Shown: positions 7,592-33,936 of the stretch, in pieces
Layout: the number at the start of each line of letters is the position of its first letter
How positions within the stretch are numbered: position 1 is the first letter of the stretch
DNA from: Prevotella melaninogenica
GTDB taxonomy: Bacteria; Bacteroidota; Bacteroidia; Bacteroidales; Bacteroidaceae
Assembly: GCF_003609775.1 (NCBI RefSeq)
Contig: NZ_AP018050.1
Coordinates: 744,001 to 808,000, forward strand
DNA: 64,000 nt
Reading direction: 5' to 3'
The notes under the pieces: model-generated
Databases searched by the model: none
Told to the model about the DNA's origin: nothing
Seen by the model: the letters and a program-made list of their open reading frames with translations, nothing else
Translations under genes and position numbers: made by a program

Positions 7592-7975
7592 TATTTACAA
7601 CCGATTATTACTCAATATTTTATAGATAATAAGTCAGAAATATGGTTGTTATTTTTAATTGCACATTCTAAAAGGTGAAGATTTAACGCTTTTATTGATT
7701 ATTAACTCAAAAAGGACATCAACTTGGGTCGTTTCTTCTCTTTTCCTTGCTATTCGTTTCCGATATTCCACTTTTGTTTTGGTCTATCTCATATGTACTG
7801 CAAAGGTATTGATTTTTGTTTGATATTGCTCCTTGCTTGCTCCTTGTCGTAGATTAATTTTCACACAGGAATTTTTGTTCTCTTTCTATAGGGGCTTGAA
7901 ACAATCCATTTATTGGAAACAATTAAAGACGGAGCTGGTTTGCCCCAGTGCTTTTTAAGAAACAGGGCAATTATT
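7592..7975. other. left end of element, no gene; outward promoter candidate
   Basis: 384 bp with no convincing gene. On the minus strand TACCTTTG at 7801-7808 fits the minus-7 consensus and would direct transcription out of the element towards the LRR fragment. Very short frames after it are not supported. Confidence 0.4.
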
Positions 7976-8197
7976 TTATCTCCACAAAGGCTCTTGTTCC
8001 CAATTATGAGGAAAGCCTAATAAACGAGTTCTTACTGATGGGTATTTCGATAAAAGCTGCTTGAAATCTGCAACAAAAGTGTTGCCCATAGAAATGGAGT
8101 TAAGCCAATACACCACATAGCAGAGTTGCGGATAAAGTGTTTGTTCACGGAACGAGAAATCCGTAATCCATGTGTTTGGCATACGCATAGGCATCAT
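7976..8197 (-). pseudogene. Abi_2-family (abortive infection) protein, C-terminal remnant
   Basis: The 73-residue frame carries QLCYVVYWLNSI, LLSKYPSV and the terminal GFPHNWEQEPLW, which I recognise as the C-terminal signature of AbiD/AbiF-like proteins (Abi_2), RNase-fold phage-exclusion factors. The N-terminal two-thirds is missing: upstream sequence turns into the cfxA leader. It is a scar of a former cargo gene at the element's left end. Confidence 0.6.
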
Positions 8198-8275
8198 TGG
8201 CTTGACAGGAAAGACCCGATTTGACAGTCTTGAATGATGGGCGCAGCAATTACGAAGTACGGGTCTGGGTACGGA

Positions 8276-8320
8276 TTAAAAGGCTAAGTGATTATTTCCA
8301 GTCATTTAGCCTTTTTAATT
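8276..8320. terminator. hairpin between Abi_2 remnant and cfxA promoter
   Basis: Inverted arms ATTAAAAGGCTAA (8276-8288) and TTAGCCTTTTTAAT (8307-8320) with a T-rich right arm. It would stop plus-strand transcription entering cfxA from the left. Confidence 0.6.
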
Positions 8321-8396
8321 ATCTAATTTTTCCCCACATTTTCCCCACAGCTGTCTATTTATATATTTTAGAAACATATTTTTCCGTAAAGTTATG

Positions 8397-8404
8397 TACC
8401 TTTG
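8397..8404 (+). promoter_or_regulatory. cfxA promoter, minus-7 box
   Basis: TACCTTTG fits TAnnTTTG 47 bp upstream of the cfxA ATG, giving a short leader. No clear minus-33 TTTG is visible at the expected spacing. Confidence 0.6.
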
Positions 8405-8451
8405 TCGGCAAATAAAGATATTCTCGTCAAACAAATATAAATAATATAAAC

Positions 8452-9417
8452 ATGGAAAAAAACAGAAAAAAACAAATCGTAGTTTTGAGTATAGCTTTAG
8501 TTTGCATTTTCATCTTGGTATTTTCATTGTTCCATAAATCAGCGACAAAAGATAGCGCAAATCCTCCTTTAACAAATGTTTTGACTGATAGCATTTCTCA
8601 AATTGTCTCAGCTTGTCCTGGCGAAATTGGTGTGGCGGTTATTGTTAATAACAGAGATACGGTTAAGGTCAATAATAAGAGTGTTTATCCTATGATGAGT
8701 GTGTTTAAGGTTCATCAGGCATTAGCTCTTTGTAATGACTTTGACAATAAAGGAATTTCACTTGATACCTTAGTAAATATAAATAGGGATAAACTTGACC
8801 CAAAGACTTGGAGTCCTATGCTGAAAGATTATTCAGGGCCAGTCATATCATTGACAGTGAGAGATTTGCTGCGTTATACTCTTACTCAGAGTGACAACAA
8901 TGCAAGCAACCTTATGTTTAAGGATATGGTTAATGTCGCTCAAACAGATAGTTTTATAGCCACACTCATTCCTCGTTCAAGTTTTCAGATAGCTTATACG
9001 GAAGAGGAAATGTCGGCTGACCATAACAAGGCTTACTCTAACTATACATCTCCTCTTGGTGCTGCAATGTTGATGAATCGTTTGTTTACTGAAGGTCTTA
9101 TCGATGATGAGAAACAAAGTTTCATTAAGAATACGTTAAAAGAATGCAAAACAGGTGTAGATAGGATAGCAGCTCCACTTCTTGATAAAGAAGGGGTTGT
9201 TATAGCGCATAAGACAGGTTCAGGTTATGTTAATGAAAATGGTGTTCTTGCAGCTCACAATGATGTTGCCTATATATGTCTGCCTAATAATATCAGTTAT
9301 ACCTTAGCGGTATTTGTTAAGGATTTCAAGGGAAATGAATCACAAGCGTCACAATATGTTGCGCATATATCAGCTGTAGTATATTCTTTATTAATGCAAA
9401 CTTCAGTAAAATCTTAA
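8452..9417 (+). CDS. cfxA: class A beta-lactamase CfxA (CfxA2-like)
   Basis: A 321-residue periplasmic or membrane-anchored serine beta-lactamase that hydrolyses penicillins and many cephalosporins. Residues 8-27 are a hydrophobic signal/anchor. The catalytic SVFK is at 83-86, the SDN loop at 147-149, an acidic omega-loop EEEMSADHN near 184-192 and KTG at 254-256. GSGYVN and KGNESQ correspond, from memory, to Tyr239 and Glu272 in Ambler numbering, which is the CfxA2 pattern. It is the only plus-strand gene of the element, AT-rich compared with the mob-to-int block, with its own promoter and terminator, so it looks like an acquired cassette. Confidence 0.96.
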   Translation: MEKNRKKQIVVLSIALVCIFILVFSLFHKSATKDSANPPLTNVLTDSISQIVSACPGEIGVAVIVNNRDTVKVNNKSVYPMMSVFKVHQALALCNDFDNKGISLDTLVNINRDKLDPKTWSPMLKDYSGPVISLTVRDLLRYTLTQSDNNASNLMFKDMVNVAQTDSFIATLIPRSSFQIAYTEEEMSADHNKAYSNYTSPLGAAMLMNRLFTEGLIDDEKQSFIKNTLKECKTGVDRIAAPLLDKEGVVIAHKTGSGYVNENGVLAAHNDVAYICLPNNISYTLAVFVKDFKGNESQASQYVAHISAVVYSLLMQTSVKS

Positions 9418-9449
9418 ACTGCACTTGCTTTGATAATTAATGATAAACA

Positions 9450-9489
9450 ATCTAAAAGCACTCTAATCGTTATCGGAGTGCTTTTAGAT
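9450..9489. terminator. bidirectional terminator between cfxA and mob
   Basis: Perfect 14-bp arms ATCTAAAAGCACTC (9450-9463) and its complement (9476-9489). It separates the convergent cfxA and mob genes. Confidence 0.85.
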
Positions 9490-9509
9490 TACTAATCAAA
9501 TTGCTTCTA

Positions 9510-10912
9510 TTATAATTTGAATCCTCTACTTTTTCTTTCTTCCTGTTGCGGCACTCTTGCTCCATATCTAAGCCTGTGCCATTGCTCCCTGAACCAGTCG
9601 GCAATCGGCTTCCTGTTTATTGTCAGGTTCAGCCTGCTTTCATCGTCAGGGTCATTTTCCACCCTTAAAATATCATCCTTTATATCAAAGTTCCGCCTGT
9701 GTTGCTCGGAATAGATTTTACCGCTACATTTCAGGGCTTCTTTTTTGACTATAAGACTTTCAGTCATTTCTTTAGAGAATCCCAGCATGGCACAAAACTT
9801 TTCCATGCGCAGCATTTCCCTGAACATCGAAACCACCTGAAAGCCTTGTCTATGATTCTGGCGAGCCGTGACAGTTCTTTTTCTTTCATGTCAAGTTCCT
9901 GCCTGTGCATTTCTCTGAGATTGTGGATTTGCGTATCATGCTGTTTCTGCATCTGCTGTACTTGGCTCTGCAATTTTTCAATATTGGTGTTCCGTTTTGA
10001 AACCTCGTCTTGCAGTTTTTCGTTGGCACGTTCCAGTTCTTTCAGTTTTCCACTCCCGAAAAGAGAAGCAACTCCACTAGTTATGGCTGTCGCTGCCGTG
10101 GTGGCTGTCTTCTTTAACTTGTCAGTGCGTATTTCTGATTTCACCTGTTTCAGTTCCTGCTCGGCAAGATTTATCTGTTCTTCTTTGTGCCGTTTGGCTG
10201 CATCCATGCGTTGCAGTTCAGCTTTCTGCTTCTCAATGATAAAGTCGTTCCGTTCCAGATGCTCCTTACCAGTGACAGCCTTTGACTGCCCGCGTTCCAT
10301 CAGCAGGATGTCGGATGCAAGGGTCTGCATCTGCATCATGTCATCGTCATTGAGCTTTCGGCTCTTTCCTGTTTCGTGGTTCATCCAGTCGAAAACGATA
10401 TGGGCATGATAGTTCGGCTTGAACCATCTGTCCCCGACTTTGAAGCTTTCCCTGTCTTCCGCTTCCGGCTGACCGTTCAGCCAATGCCCTTCATCCTTGT
10501 GCAGGAAGATTTGCAGCGGTGTGATTCCCCAGCGTCTTTGACACTCCTCACCGAATTTACGCACGTCTGCCAGTGTGGTGTCCGACCTGACAAGCAGCAC
10601 TCCTTCACGTATGGGGGAGCATCCCGCAATCTTGACTATTTTACCGTTCTTGCCTTTGCGTTCACGCTCCTTTTCCTGCATGGCACGTCCGGTCTTTTCC
10701 TTTACCATCTGTCTGATATTGTCATAATGCATCCGCAAATCCGGACTGCCGAAGTCGGGATTTATCCACTGTTCGTTATCGGTGGATAGTTCAGGAACGA
10801 CATAGATTCTGGACTCTCCGATGTGGCGCATGTATTCGGCAGTCCTCCTGTTGTGAGCCTCGCTCGATGCGATGTTGCAGGGCTTGATATGTATGCTTGA
10901 TTTTGTTGCCAT
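9510..10912 (-). CDS. MobV-type relaxase (mobilization protein), frame broken near 9825
   Basis: Nicks oriT and pilots single-stranded transfer during mobilization. The first frame (10912 to 9764, 382 aa) starts MATKSSIHIKPCN. It has a His-rich catalytic region with LHKDEGHW (H138, H143) and NYHAHIVFDW (N167, H169, H171), the metal-binding motif of the MobV/Pre group, then a long coiled coil (about 220-360). Near 9825 the frame should move to a second one (9836 to 9510) that continues FREMLRMEKFCAML to a basic end ERKSRGFKL. One missing base explains the break. The corresponding site in the error-rich copy 3 has an extra base that joins the two frames. The intact product would be about 465 residues. 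Confidence 0.8.
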
Positions 10913-10977
10913 AGATACTTGTTTTTTGGTTTGTACTTTATTGTTTGCTTTTCCGCTGTCCGTAAACGCATGGGGTT

Positions 10978-11157
10978 CTTAGGGGTGCAACCCATAAGCG
11001 GAGATTGCAAAGAGAGGGTCACTCTTTGCTCTGGGTTCTCAGGGGAGAAACGCCCTGAGTGGGTCATTAGGGTAAAACCCTAATCCCCTCGGGAGAGCCC
11101 ACAACTACGTAAGCGGAGCGTGTAGTTATAGTGGGCTATATCAATGGCAAGCCATTG
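10978..11157. other. candidate origin of transfer (oriT): hairpin cluster upstream of mob
   Basis: Six inverted repeats in 180 bp: 10978-10998 (imperfect), 11007-11029 (GCAAAGAG arms), 11038-11059 (CTCAGGG arms), 11067-11083 (TTAGGGT/ACCCTAA), 11097-11136 (GCCCAC...GTGGGC with ACTAC/GTAGT) and 11142-11157 (CAATGGC/GCCATTG). The motif TAAGCGGAG occurs twice. The region lies directly upstream of the relaxase, the usual place for oriT in small Bacteroidota mobilizable elements. The nic site is not identified. Confidence 0.55.
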
Positions 11158-11194
11158 TCTGCAAACTCCAGCCTACGGCTTCCGCTCTCCTCCG

Positions 11195-12310
11195 TCAGGG
11201 AGGTTTTTCATCATCGTTGCCGATTGGAGATGCACCGACCAGCACAAGGTCTAAATCGTCTATCAGTTTTTGCAGGACGGGATTCTTCTCTATCATCCGC
11301 TGGAGGATTCTCTCAGCCTCGACCAAGTGGTTGGCTGTACTCATCACCTTGCCCTCCCGTATCTGAAAGATAATCCAATCGGCTATGTCGATATGGGCTT
11401 CTTTTTGTTTCGGGGTGGCATTCCTTTCGATGATGTCCGAAACCACCACCTTACAAAAGTACATGCTCTCGGCTCGCTGTTTCCACTCGGCATAAGCATC
11501 GGCATCGGGAAAGAGAAGCACGGTTCGCCCTGACAGTACACGGAGTTTCTCTTCTCTCATCTGACTCTTACCACCCGTAGCCAGCCATACATAATCGGGG
11601 AAGATAGCAGAACCGATAACGGCACTCTTCTCGGATTCCACCAAGACCACCACCTTGTCGGGATGCGTTTTCAACAAGTGTTCCCCGAAAAGGCATTGGG
11701 ATAGTTGCCAATCCTCTGCCAACACACGCTGCTTTTTCAATATGCTGTGTATCCAGTTCACTGCCGATGTCTGTCCTCCCTTGATACGGTGTCCGTCTTC
11801 GGGATTGTACTGCATCACCTTTCCCGTGCGTACCTTGCCCGTCCTGTCTATCTGCCAAAAGATAACAGAGCCGTCACGGGTAGCCCCCAAACGGTATTCC
11901 TCCAACAACCGCTTCAACACCTCTTTCGCCTTGTCGCCATAGTAGGAAGTAAGGAGTGTGAAGAGGAAACGGAAGAAATTGCTACGCTCGCTTTGCGACT
12001 TCTCCACATAGTGAGGGGGAATATAGCCGATGGCTGTCGGCTTACTTTGCTGCTTCACTTTCTTCTGCTCTGCTCTTTGCCTGTCAAAAGAGAAATCATT
12101 GGTAGTTCTGTGTTCAGGATGCTCTTGAAAATACTCTTTCGGAGTGTAGTGATACCCACAACCGCTTTCGTGGTTACATCTGCCGACCGATGGATGCAAC
12201 GGCACATTATTTTCGTCCACGTAATAGACGAAAGAATGCCTGTCTCCGCATTTGGGGCAGGTATGCCGTGTTGCCGTTCCTTTATACTTCTGTAATGAAT
12301 AATTGCCCAT
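11195..12310 (-). CDS. zinc-finger/TOPRIM primase-like protein
   Basis: A 371-residue protein with an N-terminal zinc-binding region (C18, C21, C45, C51, as in CHC2-like primase fingers). A TOPRIM-like core follows: VVVLVESEKSAVIG holds the acidic pair E225/E227 and TVLLFPDADA holds D269/D271. Such proteins occur next to RepA-like ATPases on Bacteroides plasmids and integrative elements, where a role in priming replication of the excised circle is expected. It lies 3 bp after the RepA-like gene, in one operon with the HTH gene. Confidence 0.7.
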   Translation of the reverse strand: MGNYSLQKYKGTATRHTCPKCGDRHSFVYYVDENNVPLHPSVGRCNHESGCGYHYTPKEYFQEHPEHRTTNDFSFDRQRAEQKKVKQQSKPTAIGYIPPHYVEKSQSERSNFFRFLFTLLTSYYGDKAKEVLKRLLEEYRLGATRDGSVIFWQIDRTGKVRTGKVMQYNPEDGHRIKGGQTSAVNWIHSILKKQRVLAEDWQLSQCLFGEHLLKTHPDKVVVLVESEKSAVIGSAIFPDYVWLATGGKSQMREEKLRVLSGRTVLLFPDADAYAEWKQRAESMYFCKVVVSDIIERNATPKQKEAHIDIADWIIFQIREGKVMSTANHLVEAERILQRMIEKNPVLQKLIDDLDLVLVGASPIGNDDEKPP

Positions 12311-12313
12311 AGC

Positions 12314-13420
12314 TTAGTCCGTTTTTGATGGTTGATTGTCGGCTGTCCCATCCTGTCCCATTGTCCCACACTCTAAGGGTTGGGACAGTGGGACACTTGG
12401 GACACCTGCGTTTTTACTCTCTTTGCTGCGCTGGATGATACGGTTTACGGTGGACTTGCCACAATTCACCTGTGAGGCTATCTCCCTGACGGACTTGCCC
12501 GATTGGGAGAGTTGCAGAATTTGGCAATCCCTTTGGCTTGATTCATTGTCGCCCAATTTTTTCAAGTGTTCCTTTTCCGTGGAATAGCCCCTGAACACGA
12601 ACTGCAAGAAAGCATCCACCTTGTCAATCTCGTAAACGATTACATTATCCGCATCATGAGAGAACGTGCCATAGCGCACTTTAAGCTGCTTCACATAGCG
12701 AAGCCCTCCGTCTTGGGCACTTTTTCCAATGGTGAACACGCTGTCAAAGAAATTGTAGAGCCGTTTGCTTCCGGCAAGGTCGTTGGATGTGATGGGACAA
12801 TCCAAAGAGCGTTTGGGCGTATGTGCTAGGACAAGGATAGAGAGCGCATATCTCTTTTTGAGATTGTTCAGCTGAATCATCAGCCGTCCTGCGGCATCGC
12901 CTTTCTCCATGGCGCAACACAGGTAGGTAAGATTGTCAATGATGAAAATCTTGCAGTCGGTCTGCACAGCCATCTGTTCAATGCCGCCTATGATAGCTTC
13001 CTCAAAGTTGGCATCCAAAAGCTGGTTGCAGTCAATAGACACCCGATAGAGTTTGTCGGGAAAGGTGTAGAGCTCTCCATGCTCGTTGGTATAGCGGAGC
13101 TGGAACTGCTTTTCGGACAGTTCAAAGTCCAGATACAGCACATTGTCGGTTCGGGCGATGCGGTCGGCTATCTGCACGGCAAGGATGGACTTGCCCACGT
13201 TGGAATCGGCAAACAAGCAGGAGAGTTCCCCCTCGTACCAAAAGCTGTCCCACAGCGCACGGGGCGTAGGCAATAACGATGCTTCAAGAATGGTTTGGTT
13301 TGCCGTCTTGATATTCATCATGCCTACACTGTCGGGCATACCGTTATGCGCTTGGGATGCTTTTGTGAGGTCGCCACGTATCAGGTTGATATAGTTCTTA
13401 TCCTCTTCCATATCATTCAC
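12314..13420 (-). CDS. RepA-like AAA/RecA-fold ATPase (replicative helicase type)
   Basis: A 368-residue protein. Walker A ADSNVGKS is at 71-78 and Walker B KIFIIDN at 157-163; the middle resembles hexameric RepA/DnaB-type plasmid helicases. The C-terminus has a resolvase-like HTH, KSVREIASQV followed by GKSTVNRIIQ. The first codon of the longest frame is GTG at 13420, overlapping the TGA stop of the preceding HTH gene (GTGA), so translation is probably coupled; an ATG at 13411 is the alternative start. Likely role: unwinding or replicating the excised element. Confidence 0.75.
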   Translation of the reverse strand: MNDMEEDKNYINLIRGDLTKASQAHNGMPDSVGMMNIKTANQTILEASLLPTPRALWDSFWYEGELSCLFADSNVGKSILAVQIADRIARTDNVLYLDFELSEKQFQLRYTNEHGELYTFPDKLYRVSIDCNQLLDANFEEAIIGGIEQMAVQTDCKIFIIDNLTYLCCAMEKGDAAGRLMIQLNNLKKRYALSILVLAHTPKRSLDCPITSNDLAGSKRLYNFFDSVFTIGKSAQDGGLRYVKQLKVRYGTFSHDADNVIVYEIDKVDAFLQFVFRGYSTEKEHLKKLGDNESSQRDCQILQLSQSGKSVREIASQVNCGKSTVNRIIQRSKESKNAGVPSVPLSQPLECGTMGQDGTADNQPSKTD

Positions 13421-13791
13421 CAGTTACGTGGGTTGGGCTTGCGACGGTGGGAAGAGGATAAGGACTTGTTCAGTTCCTCGTCTGACAACGGTATGGGATT
13501 CTTTCGGGCGGTTTCCAGCCACTTGTCCAGTTCGTCACGGTAAAGGCAATAGCGTTTGCCGGGCTTGGTGGCAGGGATTGTCCCTTCTGACAGTTTCATG
13601 TAGAGCGTACCCTTAGGGATACCTAAATACTCTGCTGCCTCGTCCACAGACATGGGCACGTGGGTGTCCACCGTTTTGGCATTGTTCACACTGCGCTGCT
13701 CGGCGAGCAGGCTTTTCAGGCTCATCACTTCGTCTCGAAGCTGAGCGACAACCTCGGGGAGGTCGTTGAAGGTAAGAATTGATTTTTCCAT
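13417..13791 (-). CDS. HTH (excisionase-like) DNA-binding protein, 124 aa
   Basis: A helix-turn-helix of the MerR/excisionase type, MSVDEAAEYLGIPKGTLYMK, then a wing GKRYCLYRDELDKWLE; the N-terminal part is a short coiled coil. The frame extends upstream to 13860, but I chose the internal ATG at 13791 because the conserved promoter block at 13823-13893 lies inside the longer frame. It is the first gene of the HTH/RepA/TOPRIM operon. It could be an excision factor, a replication regulator or both. Confidence 0.75.
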   Translation of the reverse strand: MEKSILTFNDLPEVVAQLRDEVMSLKSLLAEQRSVNNAKTVDTHVPMSVDEAAEYLGIPKGTLYMKLSEGTIPATKPGKRYCLYRDELDKWLETARKNPIPLSDEELNKSLSSSHRRKPNPRNW

Positions 13792-13822
13792 TCGCGTACT
13801 CGTCTCTTTTGTAAGACTTGGC

Positions 13823-13893
13823 GCAAAGGACTGAAATGATATATCCGTGAATATCTCCACGACACGTCATTGCAAAATAATTCCCGAATAATT
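13823..13893 (-). promoter_or_regulatory. promoter/operator block of the HTH operon, shared with the integrase gene
   Basis: On the minus strand a TCCTTTGC minus-7-like box (13823-13830) is preceded by a block also found before the integrase (16272-16340). Shared strings on the plus strand are GCAAAGGA, ATATCCGTGAATA, CTCCACGA, TCATT and AAATAATT, in the same order and nearly the same spacing. Confidence 0.6.
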
Positions 13894-13990
13894 AAGCCCA
13901 GCCATAAATGACGGGTAAAATTACTCGGGAAACGATGTAAAACAGGCGGTTATGAGTTACCGGATGGTTGTCGTTGGTGTCGTGATTATC

Positions 13991-14848
13991 CTAATTCCGC
14001 ACATAATCCTCGGGATAGTGGAAATCAAGTTTGCCGTTTTCGGGTTCATCAATGGGAATTTCCGTCTTTAACGGCTCTACCTTGAAATTCTTGATGGTTG
14101 ATAAGTCTGTATCAGCAAACGATTTCGGGAAAAGGGCTTTGATGAACTTGGCACGGTTATCCCCATTGTAGTATCTCTTGTACAGGAAACGCTCAGAGAT
14201 ATTCCATACGAAGTGACGGAGTGGAATGTTGTTGATGTCTTTGGTAAACGGTCTTTGTATGGGCTTCGGGGTATAAGTGTTAAGATTCATCCATTTGTCC
14301 ACCTCAGTACAGATGTGGTTCACGGTTTCTTGGTCGGCAATGCGAGGCAGGTAATAATGGCAATACTCCATGACCATGCGGATGCGCTCTTCCTTTTCCC
14401 GTTGCTCTCTGCTTGCGTAATTGGCACGGTTCTTTTCGTGAAGATCCGGGGCGATAGTAAGCTCTATCGGTTGTGTTTGGATAAGTGTCTCTTCTTTTGT
14501 CGGGGATGATTCGGGTACAGGCTCAGGGACTGATGTAGGTCCAGGCACAGATGTGGCTTCTTCAAGTGTATTTTGTGACAGTTCTTCCTGCACCTCTATG
14601 GCTTCGGCAATCGTTTCTTTCTTGCCGAACTTGATTTTGTAGATTTCGTATGTATCAAAGATAAGTGTCTGAAAGGAGAGATAGAGCAACCATCCCAACA
14701 GGTTACAGCATACGAATACTATCCACCTGACAAAGTTGTCTTGGTTGAAGCTGTCCGCTATTACCAGCGTGGCAATGGAAGATATTAGGACGATGGCGAA
14801 GCCGACAAAGCCCAAGATGATGTATTTGTCCTTGATTGATGATTCCAT
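13991..14848 (-). CDS. hypothetical membrane protein, 285 aa
   Basis: Unrecognised. Two N-terminal transmembrane segments (about residues 9-32 and 41-64, counted from MESSIKD) are followed by a Pro/Glu/Thr-rich linker and a C-terminal soluble domain with FVWNISERFLYKRYYNG. The longer frame starts at 14911, but a perfect minus-7 box (14888-14895) lies within that extension, so the ATG at 14848 is preferred. Found between integrase and replication genes; no function assigned. Confidence 0.65.
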   Translation of the reverse strand: MESSIKDKYIILGFVGFAIVLISSIATLVIADSFNQDNFVRWIVFVCCNLLGWLLYLSFQTLIFDTYEIYKIKFGKKETIAEAIEVQEELSQNTLEEATSVPGPTSVPEPVPESSPTKEETLIQTQPIELTIAPDLHEKNRANYASREQREKEERIRMVMEYCHYYLPRIADQETVNHICTEVDKWMNLNTYTPKPIQRPFTKDINNIPLRHFVWNISERFLYKRYYNGDNRAKFIKALFPKSFADTDLSTIKNFKVEPLKTEIPIDEPENGKLDFHYPEDYVRN

Positions 14849-14887
14849 ATTTCGTTGAGAGATTGAATGTTCCTGTATTATTTTGTG

Positions 14888-14895
14888 CAAAGTTA
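14888..14895 (-). promoter_or_regulatory. minus-7 box for the membrane protein gene
   Basis: TAACTTTG on the minus strand is a full TAnnTTTG match, 40 bp upstream of the chosen start. Confidence 0.5.
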
Positions 14896-15032
14896 ATGCT
14901 ATTTTTCCCAATTACTGCCCGTTATTTGCGGTTAGAACGGTCTTTTTCAATGTATTTCACGAAATGTCATCATATCATACTCTGTTTCATACTCTGAGGG
15001 GCTTATAAATGGTGGCATCAAGCCAAAAACAT

Positions 15033-15072
15033 AGAGGGGCGATTATAGCCTTGTAGCCATAACCGCCCCTCT
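15033..15072. terminator. terminator-like hairpin after the integrase gene
   Basis: Arms AGAGGGGCG...TTAT and its near-complement CGCCCCTCT around GCCTTGTAGC, 24 bp past the integrase stop. Confidence 0.7.
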
Positions 15073-15095
15073 GAATACCTGTCAATGTGAGACAT

Positions 15096-16214
15096 TTATG
15101 CCTCCTTGCGCTTCAAGGTTATCTTGTCCACCACCTGACACATCTGCTGCGCTGCTATCTTGGAATAGATTTGTGTGGTGGTAATGTTCTTATGTCCGAG
15201 ATAGGCTTGGATGACAGCCATGTCCGTTCCCATTTCCACGTGCAGGCTTCCGAAGCTGTGGCGGGTACAGTGAAAGGTGATTTTCTTGGTTATCCCTGCT
15301 GCCGTGAGCCACCGTTGGAGTGGTCCTTGCAGCATCTTGTCCTTGAAATCCTCAAAGATAAGTCCCTCGCCCCGTTCTCCCAGCAGTCCATAGGCTTCAT
15401 CACTGATGGGGTTATGCACTATTTCTTTGGTTTTCTGCATACGGGTGGTAACGAACATCCTGCCGTTGGTGTATGGTTGTATCTGCTGCCACGTGAGCTG
15501 TCTGATGTCGCTCTTTCTCAGTCCCGTAAGACAGGCGAAAAGAAAAGCTTTTTTCAAGACCTCCTCCTCACAGGGTGTTTCGGCAAGCCGTATCAGTTCC
15601 TCTTGGCTCAAATGCTCCCTGATGGTGGGAATGCACTCGATGCGGTCTAAGAAGCCGTTTGGGTTCTCCTTTATCTTCCTGTCACGGTAAGCGGTGTGCA
15701 GCACGGCACGGAAAGTTGACCAATAGCCTGCTGCGGAGTTGATGTGCAGCTTTTGGTTGGTGTGGATGGATTGGGGTGCATCAAGCAGGTATTCCATGAA
15801 CTTGCGGCACAAATCCACATCCACCTCCTCAAAGGTGCATTTGCCGTTCACGAACCGCTGGAAATGCTTGTATACGTGCTGCCACTTGATATTCTTGCGG
15901 TCAGCCAGTCCTTTGAAATAGGCAAGGAAATCGCCCTTCATCTTGGTCTTGTCAAAAAAGCCGTTGTTTTCATTGAAAATGGCTTCGTAGCGCTGGTTGC
16001 GCAGGATGACCGCTTTCTTCATCATGCGTGCGTTGAAGTCCCGTTCCTGCTGGTTTGCAGGTTTGGCGAAGATGTAAATTCCTAAGGCTTCACGTGTAAT
16101 CACTCTCATGGTGACATTGTCACGGTAGCCGGGATAGTAGTCAAGGCATAGTGAATACTGTGTCCCGTTCTTAATCTTGCGCTTACGCAAGGTAACTGTT
16201 TTGCATTTACTCAT
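15096..16214 (-). CDS. tyrosine recombinase / integrase of the element
   Basis: 372 residues; catalyses site-specific integration and excision. The core-binding domain is about 95-200. The catalytic set is complete: R233 in TGLRKSD, K263 in QKTKE, H315 and R318 in HCTRHSF, H341 in LGHKNI and the nucleophile Y350 in QIYSKI. Its length and RKR-rich N-terminus match integrases of Bacteroides mobilizable transposons. It has its own promoter block (16272-16340), matching that of the HTH gene, and a terminator downstream. Confidence 0.93.
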   Translation of the reverse strand: MSKCKTVTLRKRKIKNGTQYSLCLDYYPGYRDNVTMRVITREALGIYIFAKPANQQERDFNARMMKKAVILRNQRYEAIFNENNGFFDKTKMKGDFLAYFKGLADRKNIKWQHVYKHFQRFVNGKCTFEEVDVDLCRKFMEYLLDAPQSIHTNQKLHINSAAGYWSTFRAVLHTAYRDRKIKENPNGFLDRIECIPTIREHLSQEELIRLAETPCEEEVLKKAFLFACLTGLRKSDIRQLTWQQIQPYTNGRMFVTTRMQKTKEIVHNPISDEAYGLLGERGEGLIFEDFKDKMLQGPLQRWLTAAGITKKITFHCTRHSFGSLHVEMGTDMAVIQAYLGHKNITTTQIYSKIAAQQMCQVVDKITLKRKEA

Positions 16215-16271
16215 AATAATTATGTTTTAATTGGTTGTATACATTTTGGAGTTGTATCCATGTTTCCGATG

Positions 16272-16340
16272 GCAAAGGAACAACGTGAAATATCCGTGAA
16301 TACCTCCACGATACATCATTTTGAAATAATTTTCGATAAT
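16272..16340 (-). promoter_or_regulatory. promoter/operator block of the integrase gene
   Basis: Minus-7-like TTCCTTTG followed upstream by the block shared with 13823-13893. It lies 58 bp upstream of the integrase start at 16214. Confidence 0.6.
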
Positions 16341-16355
16341 CCCGATTTTTCACGG

Positions 16356-17291
16356 TTATTTGTTCCTTTCAGCCATGACACGCTCCACATCTGAGCGCAA
16401 AAGCAGGTTTTTCACACCCACCTTTATCTTTTCGATGTGCTTCACCTTGACGATATGGCAGATGTTGGCTGACGAAAGACCATAGATTTGCTGCACCTGC
16501 TCAACGGTATAGTAGCGTTCATCGTTCACAAGGTCAGTTCTGCGGAGTTCGTTCAAATGTGATTTGGAGTAATAGGTACGCCCGTACTCTCTTTTAGTGG
16601 GTATCTTATGGCGATAGGTGTAGGCACGGAGTGCGGTCGGCTTCATGCCGAACAGTTCCTCCACCTCCTCGGTCAGTAGCCAGTCGGTAATTTCGCTAAT
16701 ATCAACTGCCACACCGAAAAACTCGTCAATATGCTTCTTGCTGTAATAGTTCTTTCCTGCGATACGGCAGATGGGGATATGGTTACGCTTGGCGGAAGTG
16801 TAAAGCCATGACTGCTTTACCTTAAAAAGGGACATCACCTCCTCGCCCGAATAGAAGTCCAACACTTCTTCGCTTTCCTTTTCCCTTTTTTCTCTTTTGG
16901 CAGGTAAGGAAGATGAAGATGATTTCCTTGGTGTGGAGGTGTTGCCGGGCAGGATGCGGTGATAGGGATTGCCCTCCAACATCTGCTCGATGTCGGCTCT
17001 GCGGATGAATGCCATGCGGTTGCTGATGCGTGAGGCTTTCAGCTTGCCGATGGCTACAAGTTTGTAAATGTACTGTCGGGAACAGCCCATGAGGATGGCT
17101 GCTTTGGAAAAGGTGAGATACTCCTGATGCTGTATCTCCATCAAGGGTTGGGCGACTTTGAAGAGGTTGTTCTTCTGCATCACTCTGGCTCGTTTGGCTT
17201 CTGCCTGACAAGCCTCACTGCAATATCTTTGCATACCGCTTCGGGTTACAAAGGACTTGCCGCAAAAACTGCATTTTCTGGTTGCTTTCAT
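16356..17291 (-). CDS. zinc-finger protein with several HTH modules, 311 aa
   Basis: The N-terminus has a zinc-finger-like pattern C7-x2-C10...C24-x3-C28. Then come about four helix-turn-helix units of the excisionase type: LTFSKAAILMGCSRQYIYKL (about 59-78), YSGEEVMSLFKVKQSWLYT, LLTEEVEELFGMKPTALRAY and YTVEQVQQIYGLSSANICHI. It sits between the integrase and the right end with its repeats, so a role as an accessory factor in recombination or target choice is plausible. Tn4555 is reported to encode a targeting protein; homology to it is not tested here. Confidence 0.7.
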   Translation of the reverse strand: MKATRKCSFCGKSFVTRSGMQRYCSEACQAEAKRARVMQKNNLFKVAQPLMEIQHQEYLTFSKAAILMGCSRQYIYKLVAIGKLKASRISNRMAFIRRADIEQMLEGNPYHRILPGNTSTPRKSSSSSLPAKREKREKESEEVLDFYSGEEVMSLFKVKQSWLYTSAKRNHIPICRIAGKNYYSKKHIDEFFGVAVDISEITDWLLTEEVEELFGMKPTALRAYTYRHKIPTKREYGRTYYSKSHLNELRRTDLVNDERYYTVEQVQQIYGLSSANICHIVKVKHIEKIKVGVKNLLLRSDVERVMAERNK

Positions 17292-17342
17292 ACCGTTTTA
17301 TCGTTTAATGGTTCATTTCTTCAATCCTATATCTCTGAAATG

Positions 17343-22443: not shown

Positions 22444-22446
22444 AGC

Positions 22447-25165: not shown

Positions 25166-25205
25166 AGAGGGGCGATTATAGCCTTGTAGCCATAACCGCC
25201 CCTCT
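25166..25205. terminator. integrase terminator, copy 2
   Basis: Same hairpin as at 15033-15072. Confidence 0.7.
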
Positions 25206-25228
25206 GAATACCTGTCAATGTGAGACAT

Positions 25229-26347
25229 TTATGCCTCCTTGCGCTTCAAGGTTATCTTGTCCACCACCTGACACATCTGCTGCGCTGCTATCTTGGAATA
25301 GATTTGTGTGGTGGTAATGTTCTTATGTCCGAGATAGGCTTGGATGACAGCCATGTCCGTTCCCATTTCCACGTGCAGGCTTCCGAAGCTGTGGCGGGTA
25401 CAGTGAAAGGTGATTTTCTTGGTTATCCCTGCTGCCGTGAGCCACCGTTGGAGTGGTCCTTGCAGCATCTTGTCCTTGAAATCCTCAAAGATAAGTCCCT
25501 CGCCCCGTTCTCCCAGCAGTCCATAGGCTTCATCACTGATGGGGTTATGCACTATTTCTTTGGTTTTCTGCATACGGGTGGTAACGAACATCCTGCCGTT
25601 GGTGTATGGTTGTATCTGCTGCCACGTGAGCTGTCTGATGTCGCTCTTTCTCAGTCCCGTAAGACAGGCGAAAAGAAAAGCTTTTTTCAAGACCTCCTCC
25701 TCACAGGGTGTTTCGGCAAGCCGTATCAGTTCCTCTTGGCTCAAATGCTCCCTGATGGTGGGAATGCACTCGATGCGGTCTAAGAAGCCGTTTGGGTTCT
25801 CCTTTATCTTCCTGTCACGGTAAGCGGTGTGCAGCACGGCACGGAAAGTTGACCAATAGCCTGCTGCGGAGTTGATGTGCAGCTTTTGGTTGGTGTGGAT
25901 GGATTGGGGTGCATCAAGCAGGTATTCCATGAACTTGCGGCACAAATCCACATCCACCTCCTCAAAGGTGCATTTGCCGTTCACGAACCGCTGGAAATGC
26001 TTGTATACGTGCTGCCACTTGATATTCTTGCGGTCAGCCAGTCCTTTGAAATAGGCAAGGAAATCGCCCTTCATCTTGGTCTTGTCAAAAAAGCCGTTGT
26101 TTTCATTGAAAATGGCTTCGTAGCGCTGGTTGCGCAGGATGACCGCTTTCTTCATCATGCGTGCGTTGAAGTCCCGTTCCTGCTGGTTTGCAGGTTTGGC
26201 GAAGATGTAAATTCCTAAGGCTTCACGTGTAATCACTCTCATGGTGACATTGTCACGGTAGCCGGGATAGTAGTCAAGGCATAGTGAATACTGTGTCCCG
26301 TTCTTAATCTTGCGCTTACGCAAGGTAACTGTTTTGCATTTACTCAT
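25229..26347 (-). CDS. tyrosine recombinase, copy 2
   Basis: Identical to 15096-16214 with all catalytic residues; promoter block at 26405-26473. Confidence 0.92.
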   Translation of the reverse strand: MSKCKTVTLRKRKIKNGTQYSLCLDYYPGYRDNVTMRVITREALGIYIFAKPANQQERDFNARMMKKAVILRNQRYEAIFNENNGFFDKTKMKGDFLAYFKGLADRKNIKWQHVYKHFQRFVNGKCTFEEVDVDLCRKFMEYLLDAPQSIHTNQKLHINSAAGYWSTFRAVLHTAYRDRKIKENPNGFLDRIECIPTIREHLSQEELIRLAETPCEEEVLKKAFLFACLTGLRKSDIRQLTWQQIQPYTNGRMFVTTRMQKTKEIVHNPISDEAYGLLGERGEGLIFEDFKDKMLQGPLQRWLTAAGITKKITFHCTRHSFGSLHVEMGTDMAVIQAYLGHKNITTTQIYSKIAAQQMCQVVDKITLKRKEA

Positions 26348-26488
26348 AATAATTATGTTTTAATTGGTTGTATACATTTTGGAGTTGTATCCATGTTTCC
26401 GATGGCAAAGGAACAACGTGAAATATCCGTGAATACCTCCACGATACATCATTTTGAAATAATTTTCGATAATCCCGATTTTTCACGG

Positions 26489-27424
26489 TTATTTGTTCCT
26501 TTCAGCCATGACACGCTCCACATCTGAGCGCAAAAGCAGGTTTTTCACACCCACCTTTATCTTTTCGATGTGCTTCACCTTGACGATATGGCAGATGTTG
26601 GCTGACGAAAGACCATAGATTTGCTGCACCTGCTCAACGGTATAGTAGCGTTCATCGTTCACAAGGTCAGTTCTGCGGAGTTCGTTCAAATGTGATTTGG
26701 AGTAATAGGTACGCCCGTACTCTCTTTTAGTGGGTATCTTATGGCGATAGGTGTAGGCACGGAGTGCGGTCGGCTTCATGCCGAACAGTTCCTCCACCTC
26801 CTCGGTCAGTAGCCAGTCGGTAATTTCGCTAATATCAACTGCCACACCGAAAAACTCGTCAATATGCTTCTTGCTGTAATAGTTCTTTCCTGCGATACGG
26901 CAGATGGGGATATGGTTACGCTTGGCGGAAGTGTAAAGCCATGACTGCTTTACCTTAAAAAGGGACATCACCTCCTCGCCCGAATAGAAGTCCAACACTT
27001 CTTCGCTTTCCTTTTCCCTTTTTTCTCTTTTGGCAGGTAAGGAAGATGAAGATGATTTCCTTGGTGTGGAGGTGTTGCCGGGCAGGATGCGGTGATAGGG
27101 ATTGCCCTCCAACATCTGCTCGATGTCGGCTCTGCGGATGAATGCCATGCGGTTGCTGATGCGTGAGGCTTTCAGCTTGCCGATGGCTACAAGTTTGTAA
27201 ATGTACTGTCGGGAACAGCCCATGAGGATGGCTGCTTTGGAAAAGGTGAGATACTCCTGATGCTGTATCTCCATCAAGGGTTGGGCGACTTTGAAGAGGT
27301 TGTTCTTCTGCATCACTCTGGCTCGTTTGGCTTCTGCCTGACAAGCCTCACTGCAATATCTTTGCATACCGCTTCGGGTTACAAAGGACTTGCCGCAAAA
27401 ACTGCATTTTCTGGTTGCTTTCAT
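26489..27424 (-). CDS. zinc-finger multi-HTH protein, copy 2
   Basis: Identical to 16356-17291. The right-end direct repeats follow at 27476-27613. Confidence 0.7.
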   Translation of the reverse strand: MKATRKCSFCGKSFVTRSGMQRYCSEACQAEAKRARVMQKNNLFKVAQPLMEIQHQEYLTFSKAAILMGCSRQYIYKLVAIGKLKASRISNRMAFIRRADIEQMLEGNPYHRILPGNTSTPRKSSSSSLPAKREKREKESEEVLDFYSGEEVMSLFKVKQSWLYTSAKRNHIPICRIAGKNYYSKKHIDEFFGVAVDISEITDWLLTEEVEELFGMKPTALRAYTYRHKIPTKREYGRTYYSKSHLNELRRTDLVNDERYYTVEQVQQIYGLSSANICHIVKVKHIEKIKVGVKNLLLRSDVERVMAERNK

Positions 27425-27777
27425 ACCGTTTTATCGTTTAATGGTTCATTTCTTCAATCCTATATCTCTGAAATGGTAAACGGATGTGAACGGAAGTCAA
27501 CCATTGTCGCTTTTCTACACAGTGTGACTGTTTCCGCATATCGGGGCGGTTATTGTCGCTTGTCGTAAACGGTTGTAAACCCTTGTCAACTGTCTGCACG
27601 GTGTGACAAAAAACAAGCCCCGCAAATTCTCCACGTCAGAAATACGTCTCAAAAATATGTGGAAATTTGGGAAGCGACAAATGGCAACCGAAAAGTGTTA
27701 AATTTTAGAATATGCTGGTAATTAAAGATTTACACTCGGATATTTCTGATTAGTTTTGGTTGTTCTATGGTTATAAA

Positions 27778-27857
27778 TACATCCAGCGAAAGCATACTCT
27801 CCAATTGTCGTAACACTATTTGGAATGGTTACAGAAGTTAGCGCGCTACAATTGAAG
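27778..27857. repeat. direct repeat plus one LRR repeat between copies 2 and 3
   Basis: Same 80 bp as at 17645-17724 with a single difference: C at 27814 where the first spacer has T at 17681. Confidence 0.75.
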
Positions 27858-28241
27858 TATTTACAACCGATTATTACTCAATATTTTATAGATAATAAGT
27901 CAGAAATATGGTTGTTATTTTTAATTGCACATTCTAAAAGGTGAAGATTTAACGCTTTTATTGATTATTAACTCAAAAAGGACATCAACTTGGGTCGTTT
28001 CTTCTCTTTTCCTTGCTATTCGTTTCCGATATTCCACTTTTGTTTTGGTCTATCTCATATGTACTGCAAAGGTATTGATTTTTGTTTGATATTGCTCCTT
28101 GCTTGCTCCTTGTCGTAGATTAATTTTCACACAGGAATTTTTGTTCTCTTTCTATAGGGCTTGAAACAATCCATTTATTGGAAAACAATTAAAGACGGAG
28201 CTGGTTTGCCCCAGTGCTTTTTAAGAAACAGGGCAATTATT

Positions 28242-28464
28242 TTATCTCCACAAAGGCTCTTGTTCCCAATTATGAGGAAAGCCTAATAAACGAGTTTCTT
28301 ACTGATGGGTATTTCGATAAAAGCTGCTTGAAATCTGCAACAAAAGTGTTGCCCATAGAAATGGAGTTAAGCCAATACACCACATAGCAGAGTTGCGGAT
28401 AAAGTGTTTGTTCACGGAACGAGAAATCCGTAATCCATGTGTTTGGCATACGCATAGGCATCAT
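28242..28464 (-). pseudogene. Abi_2 remnant, copy 3, frameshifted
   Basis: As at 7976, with an extra T near 28296 that breaks the C-terminal GFPHNW motif frame. Confidence 0.5.
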
Positions 28465-28719
28465 TGGCTTGACAGGAAAGACCCGATTTGACAGTCTTGA
28501 ATGATGGGCGCAGCAATTACGAAGTACGGGTCTGGGTACGGATTAAAAAGGCTAAGTGATTATTTCCAGTCATTTAGCCTTTTTAATTATCTAATTTTTC
28601 CCCACATTTTCCCCACAGCTGTCTATTTATATATTTTAGAAACATATTTTTCCGTAAAGTTATGTACCTTTGTCGGCAAATAAAGATATTCTCGTCAAAC
28701 AAATATAAATAATATAAAC

Positions 28720-29686
28720 ATGGAAAAAAACAGAAAAAAACAAATCGTAGTTTTGAGTATAGCTTTAGTTTGCATTTTCATCTTGGTATTTTCATTGTTC
28801 CATAAATCAGCGAACAAAAGATAGCGCAAATCCTCCTTTAAACAAATGTTTTGACTGATAGCATTTCTCAAATTGTCTCAGCTTGTCCTGGCGAAATTGG
28901 TGTGGCGGTTATTGTTAATAACAGAGATACGGTTAAGGTCAATAATAAGAGTGTTTATCCTATGATGAGTGTGTTTAAGGTTCCATCAGGCATTAGCTCT
29001 TTGTAATGACTTTGACAATAAAGGAATTTCACTTGATACCTTAGTAAAATATAAATAGGGATAAACTTGACCCAAAGACTTGGATCCTATGCTGAAAGAT
29101 TATTCAGGGGCCAGTCATATCATTGACAGTGAGAGATTTGCTGCGTTATACTCTTACTGCAGAGTGACAACAATGCAAGCAACCTTATGTTTAAGGATAT
29201 GGTTAATGTCGCTCAAACAGATAGTTTTATAGCCACACTCATTCCTCGTTCAAGTTTTCAGATAGCTTATACGGAAGAGGAAATGTCGGCTGACCATAAC
29301 AAGGCTTACTCTAACTAACATCTCCTCTTGGTGCTGCAATGTTGATGAATCGTTTGTTTACTGAAGGTCTTATCGATGATGAGAAACAAAGTTTCATTAA
29401 GAATACGTTAAAAGAATGCAAACAGGTGTAGATAGGATAGCAGCTCCACTTCTTGATAAAGAAGGGGTTGTTATAGCGCATAAGAAGGTTCAGGTTATGT
29501 TAATGAAAATGGTGTTCTTGCAGCTCACAATGATGTTGCCTATATATGTCTGCCTAATAATATCAGTTATACCTTAGCGGTATTTGTTAAGGATTTCAAG
29601 GAAATGAATCACAAGCGTCACAATATGTTGCGCATATATCAGCTGTAGTATATTCTTTATTAATGCAAACTTCAGTAAAATCTTAA
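28720..29686 (+). pseudogene. cfxA: cfxA, copy 3, at least ten indels
   Basis: Compared with 8452-9417, bases are inserted or deleted near 28813, 28842, 28982, 29048, 29084, 29109, 29158, 29317, 29421, 29485 and 29600. No long frame remains. Density above 1% within one conserved gene, with a normal stop still present, argues for sequencing error and against decay. Confidence 0.85.
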
Positions 29687-29780
29687 AACTGCACTTGCTT
29701 TGATAATTAATGATAAACAATCTAAAAGCACTCTAATCGTTATCGGAGTGCTTTTTAGATTACTAATCAAATTGCTTCTA

Positions 29781-31194
29781 TTATAATTTGAATCCTCTAC
29801 TTTTTCTTTCTTCCTGTTGCGGCACTCTTGCTCCATATCTAAGCCTGTGCCATTGCTCCCTGAACCAGTCGGCAATCGGCTCCTGTTTATTGTCAGGTTC
29901 AGCCTGCTTTCATCGTCAGGGTCATTTTCCACCTTAAAATATCATCCTTTATATCAAAGTTCCGCCTGTGTTGCTCGGAATAGATTTTACCGCTACATTT
30001 CAGGGCTTCTTTTTTGACTATAAGACTTTCAGTCATTTCTTTAGAGAATCCCAGCATGGCACAAAACTTTTCCAATGCGCAGCATTTCCCTGAAACATCG
30101 AAACCACCTGAAAGCCTTGTCTATGATTCTGGCGAGCCGTGACAGTTCTTTTTCTTTCATGTCAAGTTCCTGCCTGTGCATTTCTCTGAGATTGTGGATT
30201 TGCGTATCATGCTGTTTCTTGCATCTGCTGTACTTGGCTCTGCAATTTTTCAATATTGGTGTTCCGTTTTGAAACCTCGTCTTGCAGTTTTTCGTTGCAC
30301 GTTCCAGTTCTTTCAGTTTTCCACTCCCGAAAAGAGAAGCAACTCCACTAGTTATGGCTGTCGCTGCCGTGGTGGCTGTCTTCTTTAACTTGTCAGTGCG
30401 TATTTCTGATTTCACCTGTTTCAGTTCCTGCCTCGGCAAGATTTATCTGTTCTTCTTTGTGCCGTTTGCTGCATCCATGCGTTGCAGTTCAGCTTTCTGC
30501 TTCTCAATGATAAAGTCGTTCCGTTCAAGATGCTCCTTACCAGTGACAGCCTTTGACTGCCCGCGTTCCATCGAGCAGGATGTCGGATGCAAGGGTCTGC
30601 ATCTGCATCATGTCATCGTCATTGAGCTTTCGGCTCTTTCCTGTTTCGTGGTTCATCCAGTCGAAAACGATATGGGCATGATAGTTCGGCTTGAACCATC
30701 TGTCCCCGACTTTGAAGCTTTCCCTGTCTTCCGCTTCCGGCTGACCGTTCAGCCCAATGCCCTTCATCCTTGTGCAGGAAGATTTGCAGCGGTGTGATTC
30801 CCCAGCGTCTTTGACACTCCTCACCGAATTTACGCACGTCTGCCAGTGTGGTGTCCGACCTGACAAGCAGCACTCCTTCACGTATGGGGAGCATCCCGCA
30901 ATCTTGACTATTTTACCGTTCTTGCCTTTGCGTTCACGCTCCTTTTCCTGCATGGCACGTCCGGTCTTTTCCTTTACCATCTGGTCTGATATTGTCATAA
31001 TGCATCCGCAAATCCGGACTGCCGAAGTCGGGATTTATCCACTGTTCGTTATCGGTGGATAGTTCAGGAACGACATAGATTCTGGACTCTCGATGTGGCG
31101 CATGTATTCGGCAGTCCTCCTGTTGTGAGCCTCGCTCGATGCGATGTTGCAGGGCTTGATATGTATGCTTGATTTTGTTGCCATAGATACTTGT
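29781..31194 (-). pseudogene. MobV-type relaxase, copy 3, frameshifted
   Basis: Broken by many indels. At 30092-30097 it reads GAAACA where the clean copies have GAACA. This extra base joins the N-terminal and C-terminal frames that are disconnected in the clean copies (IIDKAFRWFRCFREMLR). Confidence 0.75.
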
Positions 31195-31466
31195 TTTTTG
31201 GTTTGTACTTTATTGTTGCTTTTCCGCTGTCCGTAAACGCATGGGGTTCTTAGGGGTGCAACCCATAAGCGGAGATTGCAAAGAGAGGGTCACTCTTTGC
31301 TCTGGGTTCTCAGGGGAAGAAACGCCCTGAGTGGGTCATTAGGGTAAAACCCTAATCCCTCGGGAGAGCCCACAACTACGTAAGCGGAGCGTGTAGTTAT
31401 TAGTGGGCTATATCAATGCAAAGCCATTGTCTGCAAACTCCAGCCTACGGCTTCCGCTCTCCTCCG

Positions 31467-32583
31467 TCAGGGAGGTTTTTCATCATCGTTTGCCGATTGG
31501 AGATGCACCGACCAGCACAAGGTCTAAATCGTCTATCAGTTTTTGCAGGACGGGATTCTTCTCTATCATCCGCTGGAGGATTCTCTCAGCCTCGACCAAG
31601 TGGTTGGCTTGTACTCATCACCTTGCCCTCCCGTATCTGAAAGATAATCCAATCGGCTATGTCGATATGGGCTTCTTTTTGTTTCGGGGTGGCATTCCTT
31701 TCGATTGATGTCCGAAACCACCACCTTACAAAAGTACATGCTCTCGGCTCGCTGTTTCCACTCGGCATAAGCATCGGCATCGGGAAAGAGAAGCACGGTT
31801 CGCCCTGACAGTACACGGAGTTTCTCTTCTCTCAATCTGACTCTTACCACCCGTAGCCAGCCATACATAATCGGGGAAGATAGCAGAACCGATAACGGCA
31901 CTCTTCTCGGATTCCACCAAGACCACCACCTTGTCGGGATGCGTTTTCAACAAGTGTTCCCCGAAAAGGCATTGGGATAGTTGCCAATCCTCTGCCAACA
32001 CACGCTGCTTTTTCAATATGCTGTGTATCCAGTTCACTGCCGATGTCTGTCCTCCCTTGATACGGTGTCCGTCTTCGGGATTGTACTGCATCACCTTTCC
32101 CGTGCGTACCTTGCCCGTCCTGTCTATCTGCCAAAGATAACAGAGCCGTCACGGGTAGCCCCCAAACGGTATTCCTCCAACAACCGCTTCAACACCTCTT
32201 TCGCCTTGTCGCCATAGTAGGAAGTAAGGAGTGTGAAGAGGAAACGGAAGAAATTGCTACGCTCGCTTTGCGACTTCTCCACATAGTGAGGGGAATATAG
32301 CCGATGGCTGTCGGCTTACTTTGCTGCTTCACTTTCTCTGCTGCTCTGCTCTTTGCCTGTCAAAAGAGAAATCATTGGTAGTTCTGTTTCAGGATGCTCT
32401 TGAAAATACTCTTTCGGAGTGTAGTGATACCCACAACCGCTTTCGTGGTTACATCTGCCGACCGATGGATGCAACGGCACATTATTTTCGTCCACGTAAT
32501 AGACGAAAGAATGCCTGTCTCCGCATTTGGGCAGGTATGCCGTGTTGCCGTTCCTTTATACTCTGTAATGAATAATTGCCCAT
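31467..32583 (-). pseudogene. TOPRIM primase-like gene, copy 3, frameshifted
   Basis: Recognisable pieces of the 371-aa protein in three frames. The candidate oriT hairpins upstream of mob lie at about 31259-31440, also with indels. Confidence 0.7.
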
Positions 32584-32586
32584 AGC

Positions 32587-33689
32587 TTAGTCCGTTTTTG
32601 ATGGTTGATTGTCGGCTGTCCCATCCTGTCCCATTGTCCCACACTCTAAGGTTGGGACAGTGGGACACTTGGGACACCTGCGTTTTTACTCTCTTTGCTG
32701 CGCTGGATGATACGGTTTACGTGGACTTGCCACAATTCACCTGTGAGGCTATCTCCCTGACGGACTTGCCCGATTGGGAGAGTTGCAGAATTTGGCAATC
32801 CCTTTGGCTTGATTCATTGTCGCCCAATTTTTTCAAGTGTTCCTTTTCCGTGGAATAGCCCCTGAACACGAACTGCAAGAAAGCATCCACCTTGTCAATC
32901 TCGTAAACGATTACATTATCCGCATCATGAGAGAACGTGCCATAGCGCACTTTAAGCTGCTTCACATAGCGAAGCCCTCCGTCTTGGGCACTTTTTCCAA
33001 TGGTGAACACGCTGTCAAAGAAATTGTAGAGCCGTTTGCTTCCGGCAAGGTCGTTGGATGTGATGGGACAATCCAAAGAGCGTTTGGGCGTATGTGCTAG
33101 GACAAGGATAGAGAGCGCATATCTCTTTTTGAGATTGTTCAGCTGAATCATCAGCCGTCCTGCGGCATCGCCTTTCTCCATGGCGCAACACAGGTAGGTA
33201 AGATTGTCAATGATGAAAATCTTGCAGTCGGTCTGCACAGCCATCTGTTCAATGCCGCCTATGATAGCTTCCTCAAAGTTGGCATCCAAAAGCTGGTTGC
33301 AGTCAATAGACACCCGATAGAGTTTGTCGGGAAAGGTGTAGAGCTCTCCATGCTCGTTGGTATAGCGGAGCTGGAACTGCTTTTCGACAGTTCAAAGTCC
33401 AGATACAGCACATTGTCGGTTCGGGCGATGCGGTCGGCTATCTGCACGGCAAGGATGGACTTGCCCACGTTGGAATCGGCAAACAAGCAGGAGAGTTCCC
33501 CCTCGTACCAAAAGCTGTCCCACAGCGCACGGGCGTAGGCAATAACGATGCTTCAAGAATGGTTTGGTTTGCCGTCTTGATATTCATCATGCCTACACTG
33601 TCGGGCATACCGTTATGCGCTTGGGATGCTTTTGTGAGGTCGCCACGTATCAGGTTGATATAGTTCTTATCCTCTTCCATATCATTCAC
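32587..33689 (-). pseudogene. RepA-like ATPase gene, copy 3, frameshifted
   Basis: A long clean middle part (32717-33313) remains; indels occur on both sides, including one before Walker A and one in the C-terminal HTH. Confidence 0.7.
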
Positions 33690-33936
33690 CAGTTACGTGG
33701 GTTGGGCTTGCGACGGTGGGAAGAGGATAAGACTTGTTCAGTCCTCGTCTGACAACGGTATGGGATTCTTTCGGGCGGTTTCCAGCCACTTGTCCAGTTC
33801 GTCACGGTAAAGGCAATAGCGTTTGCCGGGCTTGGTGGCAGGGATTGTCCCTTCTGACAGTTTCATGTAGAGCGTACCCTTAGGATACCTAAATACTCTG
33901 CTGCCTCGTCCACAGACATGGGCACGGGTGTCCACC
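33686..33936 (-). pseudogene. HTH (excisionase-like) gene, copy 3, N-terminus lost at the junction
   Basis: The C-terminal HTH and wing are readable with indels; the N-terminal coiled-coil part is replaced by unrelated sequence after 33936. Confidence 0.7.

Follow-up and report, generated by a model that had tools for sequence, protein, structure and literature searches.

Target choice by the mobilizable element Tn4555 is described in the accessible portion of PMC5704250, according to which its favored site in Bacteroides fragilis is adjacent to a 207-bp direct repeat, upstream or downstream of it, and deletion of tnpA makes its insertion essentially random; the excerpted text of PMC13183296 further describes a 10-kb Tn4555 in O. 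hominis. Here, we analyze a 64,000-nucleotide stretch of the Prevotella melaninogenica genome (NCBI RefSeq assembly GCF_003609775.1, contig NZ_AP018050.1, positions 744,001 to 808,000), referred to throughout as the window, in which copies of this element and of its β-lactamase gene cfxA are found within a BspA-like leucine-rich repeat (LRR) gene. The length of the B. fragilis repeat (207 = 3 × 69) would fit LRR units, and the preferred site of Tn4555 there may be an LRR gene, with TnpA presumably steering the element to LRR code. The element is a known one, and the more useful result presented here is its frequent landing at what appears to be one fixed point of LRR repeats. A literature search, with most subscription journals outside its coverage, returned no text on LRR-targeted cfxA elements.

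Two further systems offer points of comparison. The MTnPi1-3 elements of Prevotella intermedia are, like Tn4555, mobilizable elements with a tyrosine recombinase, several copies, and short att sites, the latter given as TTAC NNNNN AA in a table in the accessible part of PMC5704250; unlike Tn4555, they feature two integrase genes in tandem, as described in the excerpted text of PMC4755523, where a β-lactamase family protein is listed among the MTn accessory genes and the term cfxA occurs 0 times. In contrast to known Tn4555 insertions, successive units of an LRR gene are occupied at the present locus. Tandem arrays of integrative elements such as SGI1 use one common att site and have the att core alone between copies. 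As in such arrays, the copies described here are integrated head to tail, but each of them seems to have targeted an LRR unit of its own.

Tn4555 Copies and the LRR Units Between Them

All coordinates below are window positions, with position 1 corresponding to position 744001 of contig C2 and negative values lying before the window; the copies (E1 to E4), spacers (X and X'), and genes are collected in Table 1. By its sequence, the element is Tn4555. Identical TnpA, Int, TnpC, Xis-like, AAA, and CfxA proteins are encoded by the B. thetaiotaomicron BFG-484 copy (NZ_CP103154.1), whose annotation names two of them Tn4555 TnpA and TnpC, and cfxA of the present element matches NF033100 with 709.7 bits (cut-off 625). 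Known Tn4555 in plasmid copies differs in having an annotated open reading frame (ORF) of 467 amino acids (aa), a mobilization or hypothetical protein, to which no identical ORF was found in 9510-10912, the longest there being 382 aa; E1, E2, E4, and a copy on C1, the other large contig, agree across this region. The C1 copy (C1:132803-142868, minus strand) is identical as well and lies outside the window, again inside an LRR gene, such that both Tn4555 loci of the genome are found in LRR genes while LRR_5 matches cover just 5,748 bases of its 3.09 Mb.

With GTATTTA and TAAATAC as its ends, the element is 10,057 bp long, and self-comparison of the window returned the start-to-start spacing of 10,133 bp that the initial annotation had reported for copies 1, 2, and 3. 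That annotation also placed exactly one 69-bp LRR unit between neighboring copies: a 23-codon unit is indeed present, with X translating as FNCSALTSVTIPNS[I/V]TTIGEYAFAG, but measured from the element's own ends the E1-E2 and E2-E3 distances are 76 bp (69 + 7). The single-base difference between the spacers (17681 T in X, 27814 C in X') was likewise seen, as was the common phase of neighboring copies in successive LRR units, which fits the general target preference of the element described below. Only two copies within the array, E1 and E2, are complete. The third, copy 3 of the initial annotation, is incomplete (27857-33941), carries 56 differences from E1, and looks like a contig end of low quality. 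E1, E2, E4, and the C1 copy show zero differences among them, and 10 kb of identity between copies is an extent for which chance needs no test.

Sequence at the junctions provides further insight into how the copies came to lie next to each other. All complete copies have atccagc as the 7 bp on their right, whereas the left-hand 7 bp are atccagc for E1 and E4, aattgaa for E2 and E3, and agagtta for the C1 copy. As the left segment of E2 is unlike that of E1, the left junction of E2 was not copied from E1; E2 seems to occupy its own target site, one LRR unit from E1, and the distance of 76 bp is consequently the sum of 69 and 7. Compared over 69 bases with Y, the unit on the right side of E4, X shows differences at four internal positions and in the final five bases, and a search of the genome with the junction returned 13 matches, none identical over the unit except both spacers. 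X probably derives from reads with the element on both sides, and the element-X-element junction looks real in the DNA, a likely conclusion rather than a proven one. Because this element-spacer-element sequence matches nowhere else in the assembly, at least two true tandem copies are likely, and the simplest minimal array is one of two copies, perhaps three. The left junction shared by E2 and E3 fits either amplification of an E-X unit by recombination or an assembler loop.

Target Preference in Other Genomes

Three sets of loci were scanned for element ends: 59 from named genome contigs, all 30 returned by a search of family genomes (52 of 399 genomes matched), and 5 of the 26 plasmid records with a match. 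Right ends were detected in 53/59, 27/30, and 2/5 of these, respectively, using an end pattern that misses ends more diverged than the pattern itself. From a total of 84 right ends, 7 with less than 120 bases of flank were excluded, and same-site repeats, sites of the genome studied here, and two element-into-element junctions were removed before counting, leaving 59 distinct flanks. Of 62 references listed, these 59 were queried against Pfam, each with its longest open stretch within at most 450 bases (E up to 0.01), alongside control stretches from the same loci (88 of 90, two near-duplicates being omitted). LRR_5, the BspA-type family, was found in 25/59 flanks versus at most 1/88 controls, the bound reflecting that 25 of 66 control families are among the matches listed and that LRR_5 is absent there. 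A second detector, a small custom profile built from LRR units of the P. melaninogenica genome, recognized 23/59 right flanks, 8/25 left flanks, and 1/245 control stretches.

Within the 23 LRR sites of the custom profile set, the gene is antiparallel to the element in 22, and in 19 of these the end falls exactly 7 bp after the ...AF codons (L033 is counted by its AF codons at 7 bp, which gives 19 and not 18 sites at the usual base). Across genomes, the 7-bp segments at the two element ends vary and match each other in 4 of the 20 elements for which both ends could be read, the pattern that a crossover or coupling segment of Tn916-like insertion would produce. In P. vespertina (L141), a matching neighborhood with flanks 79-85% identical carries an element 371 bp longer, at another LRR unit and with another 7-bp segment, and we take this insertion as independent of the present one. 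Together, these comparisons suggest that a single fixed point within surface-protein LRR repeats is a frequent landing site of the element family.

Similarly spaced junctions were also sought elsewhere. The pattern TAAATAC-N61..91-GTATTTACAAC was found in 3/200 genomes of the genus, the present one among them, and its reversed control in 2/200; the other two matches (L118 and L119), likewise with 76-bp spacing, have no element sequence in the 3 kb examined and were counted as chance. A stricter pattern applied to 114 loci, our own excluded, returned no other 76-bp element-element junction. Head-to-tail ends only 7 and 10 bp apart were observed at L051 (minus strand, 12536, on a P. coprocola contig) and L101 (plus strand, 483, in a family genome), respectively, and may be either direct tandems or assembled circles, while a candidate junction at L020 was dismissed, the sequence beyond it not continuing as element.

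A Doubled Left Flank and a Probable Assembly Seam

Missing from the initial annotation is a second occurrence of the left flank within the window. In self-comparison, -5266..17718 is present again at 33941..56926, over 22,984 bp and with 99.8% identity, after which the two renderings diverge: one continues as X-E2-X'-E3 and the other as Y and the right flank. The differences of E3 from E1 comprise 27 deletions, 25 insertions, and 4 substitutions, most of the indels being of one base, and span 28156-33937 with a fairly even density and no rise toward the seam. Between the two left flanks, the second has 16 insertions, 12 deletions, and 2 other events relative to the first, and no differences are found from 43906 through the end of E4. 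With both sides of the seam taken together, indels make up 80 of 86 events, none of which lies farther than about 10 kb from it; indel-type errors flank it on both sides and occur nowhere else in the overlap. ORFs of at least 100 aa amount to 3376 aa in 12 ORFs in the first flank and 2459 aa in 13 in the second, with the longest flank ORF at 671 versus 317 aa.

Indels on either side of a single seam, across both a mobile element and the chromosome, have the look of unpolished contig ends. We infer that 33942 was the first and 33941 the last position of the chromosome contig, with the overlap left untrimmed. Because they share the same left flank in this overlap, copies 1 and 4 would be one locus seen twice, which makes the copy number unreadable from the assembly, and, with the flank doubled, the sequence between E3 and about 44 kb cannot be relied on. 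Neither three copies nor the proposed amplification of cfxA by copy number finds support here, the third copy being of the quality described and the two renderings of the locus being in conflict over what follows the first copy.

Proposed Explanation and Its Alternatives

In light of these results, we consider it probable that Tn4555 prefers LRR units and that the array is in part an assembly error, with a true order of left flank-E-X-E-Y-right flank and two copies, possibly three. The tyrosine recombinase, with guidance by TnpA (a role taken from the literature, to which LRR recognition would be added), would insert Tn4555 preferentially into 69-bp LRR units of BspA-like genes, mostly at one position and in one orientation, leaving it flanked on both sides by a 7-bp crossover segment. 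The element would have entered one unit and then the next unit of the same gene, yielding the element-LRR unit-element arrangement. These repeats would have broken the assembly, so that the contig began and ended in the locus with overlapping low-quality ends, one of which walked through the tandem while the other collapsed it to one copy; their untrimmed joining would, to judge from the error pattern, account for both the poor third copy and the repeated left flank.

Several observations weigh against this explanation. LRR_5 is missing from 34/59 flanks, which makes LRR code a preference and not a rule. Three of the 22 antiparallel sites are off the usual base, one by 1 bp and two elsewhere, and at 1 of the 23 LRR sites (L112) a true LRR gene runs parallel to the element. 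The C1 insertion lies in an LRR gene yet off the usual phase. The seam, moreover, falls in the middle of the record (C2:777941), which would require a later restart of the record at another point; we checked the present ends of C2 and found no ORF crossing them, which is neutral on the idea of a contig restart. E4-Y could also reflect a genuine single-copy variant present in the culture and not a collapse, and the one-base difference between X and X' favors three real copies over an assembler loop.

The latter point also speaks for an alternative that overlaps with the third copy allowed above and that we regard as unlikely but worth serious attention, namely that at least three clean tandem copies exist, E3 being poor merely as a contig end and E4 a collapse of the whole array. 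In its favor are the single base that separates the two spacers and the aattgaa left junction common to E2 and E3, the latter being what amplification of the E-X unit by recombination would be expected to leave. E-X'-E would also result, however, if the assembler had passed through a two-copy array one extra time, and a single-base difference can be a consensus error.

An improbable arrangement is that of one chromosomal copy, with the E-X-E junction contributed by an extrachromosomal circle or a minor subpopulation. E4-Y does present a single-copy arrangement, and a circular 10,057-bp record of the element is available from B. fragilis (CP103138.1), which looks like an excised circle although its end junction is nearly 20 bases short of expected. 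An ordinary circle would nonetheless hold a short crossover segment and not 76 bp, and one formed by crossover between LRR units would be expected to start with Y-type sequence, from which X differs near its start.

That the array is real as drawn, with at least three copies of which the third is truncated and decaying, plus a true large duplication with a fourth copy, is very improbable: the sequence does read so, and X and X' are one base apart, but E3 shows 52 indels versus 4 substitutions, and the same type of difference crosses the seam into the chromosomal flank to end at 43906. Natural decay would be expected to leave mostly substitutions and to pay no respect to a seam. A single insertion followed by simple unequal crossover between the surrounding LRR repeats was rejected, as the aattgaa left junction of E2 and E3 is not a copy of the atccagc of E1, and a mixture of two single-copy alleles is unlikely, given that a long-read assembler would presumably not join on about 70 bp. 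Overall, the phase relation is real and in keeping with the target preference, and a short real array is likely, whereas the array as drawn is not reliable.

Other Features of the Window

The element interrupts a gene whose C-terminal part lies to the left of E1, and the N-terminal part to the right of E4 is taken as belonging to it (Table 1). Inverted-repeat arms of 78 nt, 83% complementary, were noted at 4596-4673, 34192-34269, and 43803-43880, of which the first and third reflect the doubled flank; C1:148490-148611 holds a related sequence. At 58765-58993 lie short tandem repeats of 7, 8, and 16 bp, at and upstream of the start of a 463-aa ORF (57473-58864, minus strand).

Table 1. Features of the Tn4555 locus, in window coordinates
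Feature	Position	Strand	Remarks
BspA-like LRR gene, C-terminal part	6910..7590	-	LRR_5
Tn4555 copy E1	7591..17647	+	complete; identical to E2, E4, and C1 copy
cfxA, class A β-lactamase, in E1	8452..9417	+	
DUF6371 / PG0870-type protein, in E1	11195..12310	-	
AAA ATPase (AAA_25), in E1	12314..13411	-	
Xis-like excisionase, in E1	13417..13791	-	
TnpC, in E1	13991..14848	-	
Int, tyrosine recombinase, in E1	15096..16214	-	
TnpA, reported targeting protein, in E1	16356..17291	-	HTH_17 matches in three stretches
Spacer X, 76 bp	17648..17723	- (coding)	7-bp crossover segment + one 69-bp LRR unit
Tn4555 copy E2	17724..27780	+	complete
Spacer X', 76 bp	27781..27856	-	one base different from X
Tn4555 copy E3	27857..33941	+	incomplete, 6.1 of 10.06 kb; probable unpolished contig end
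Seam	33941..33942	.	E3 interior abuts left flank (-5265); probable join of two untrimmed contig ends
Left flank, second rendering	33942..46798	.	= -5265..7590; 30 differences, all in 34266-43906; ORFs shorter
Tn4555 copy E4	46799..56855	+	same left flank; probable second rendering of E1 locus
LRR gene, N-terminal part, right of E4	56856..57171	-	hydrophobic start, first LRR units

Implications

The copy number of cfxA cannot be reliably taken from this assembly. What the comparison does offer is a suggested landing rule for a widespread resistance element, which would often choose a fixed base of protein-repeat code of which many units are present per genome, and this rule makes the old question of what TnpA recognizes directly testable. 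More tentatively, and as a proposal that we hold to be doubtful in its full extent, Tn4555-family elements may use the BspA-like 69-bp LRR code as a dispersed, phase-locked attachment site via TnpA; an LRR gene would then serve as a ladder on which cfxA elements are stacked one per rung and come and go, which would alter the dose of the resistance gene and at the same time switch the surface protein. The landing rule itself predicts that insertions of the element would often break surface LRR proteins.

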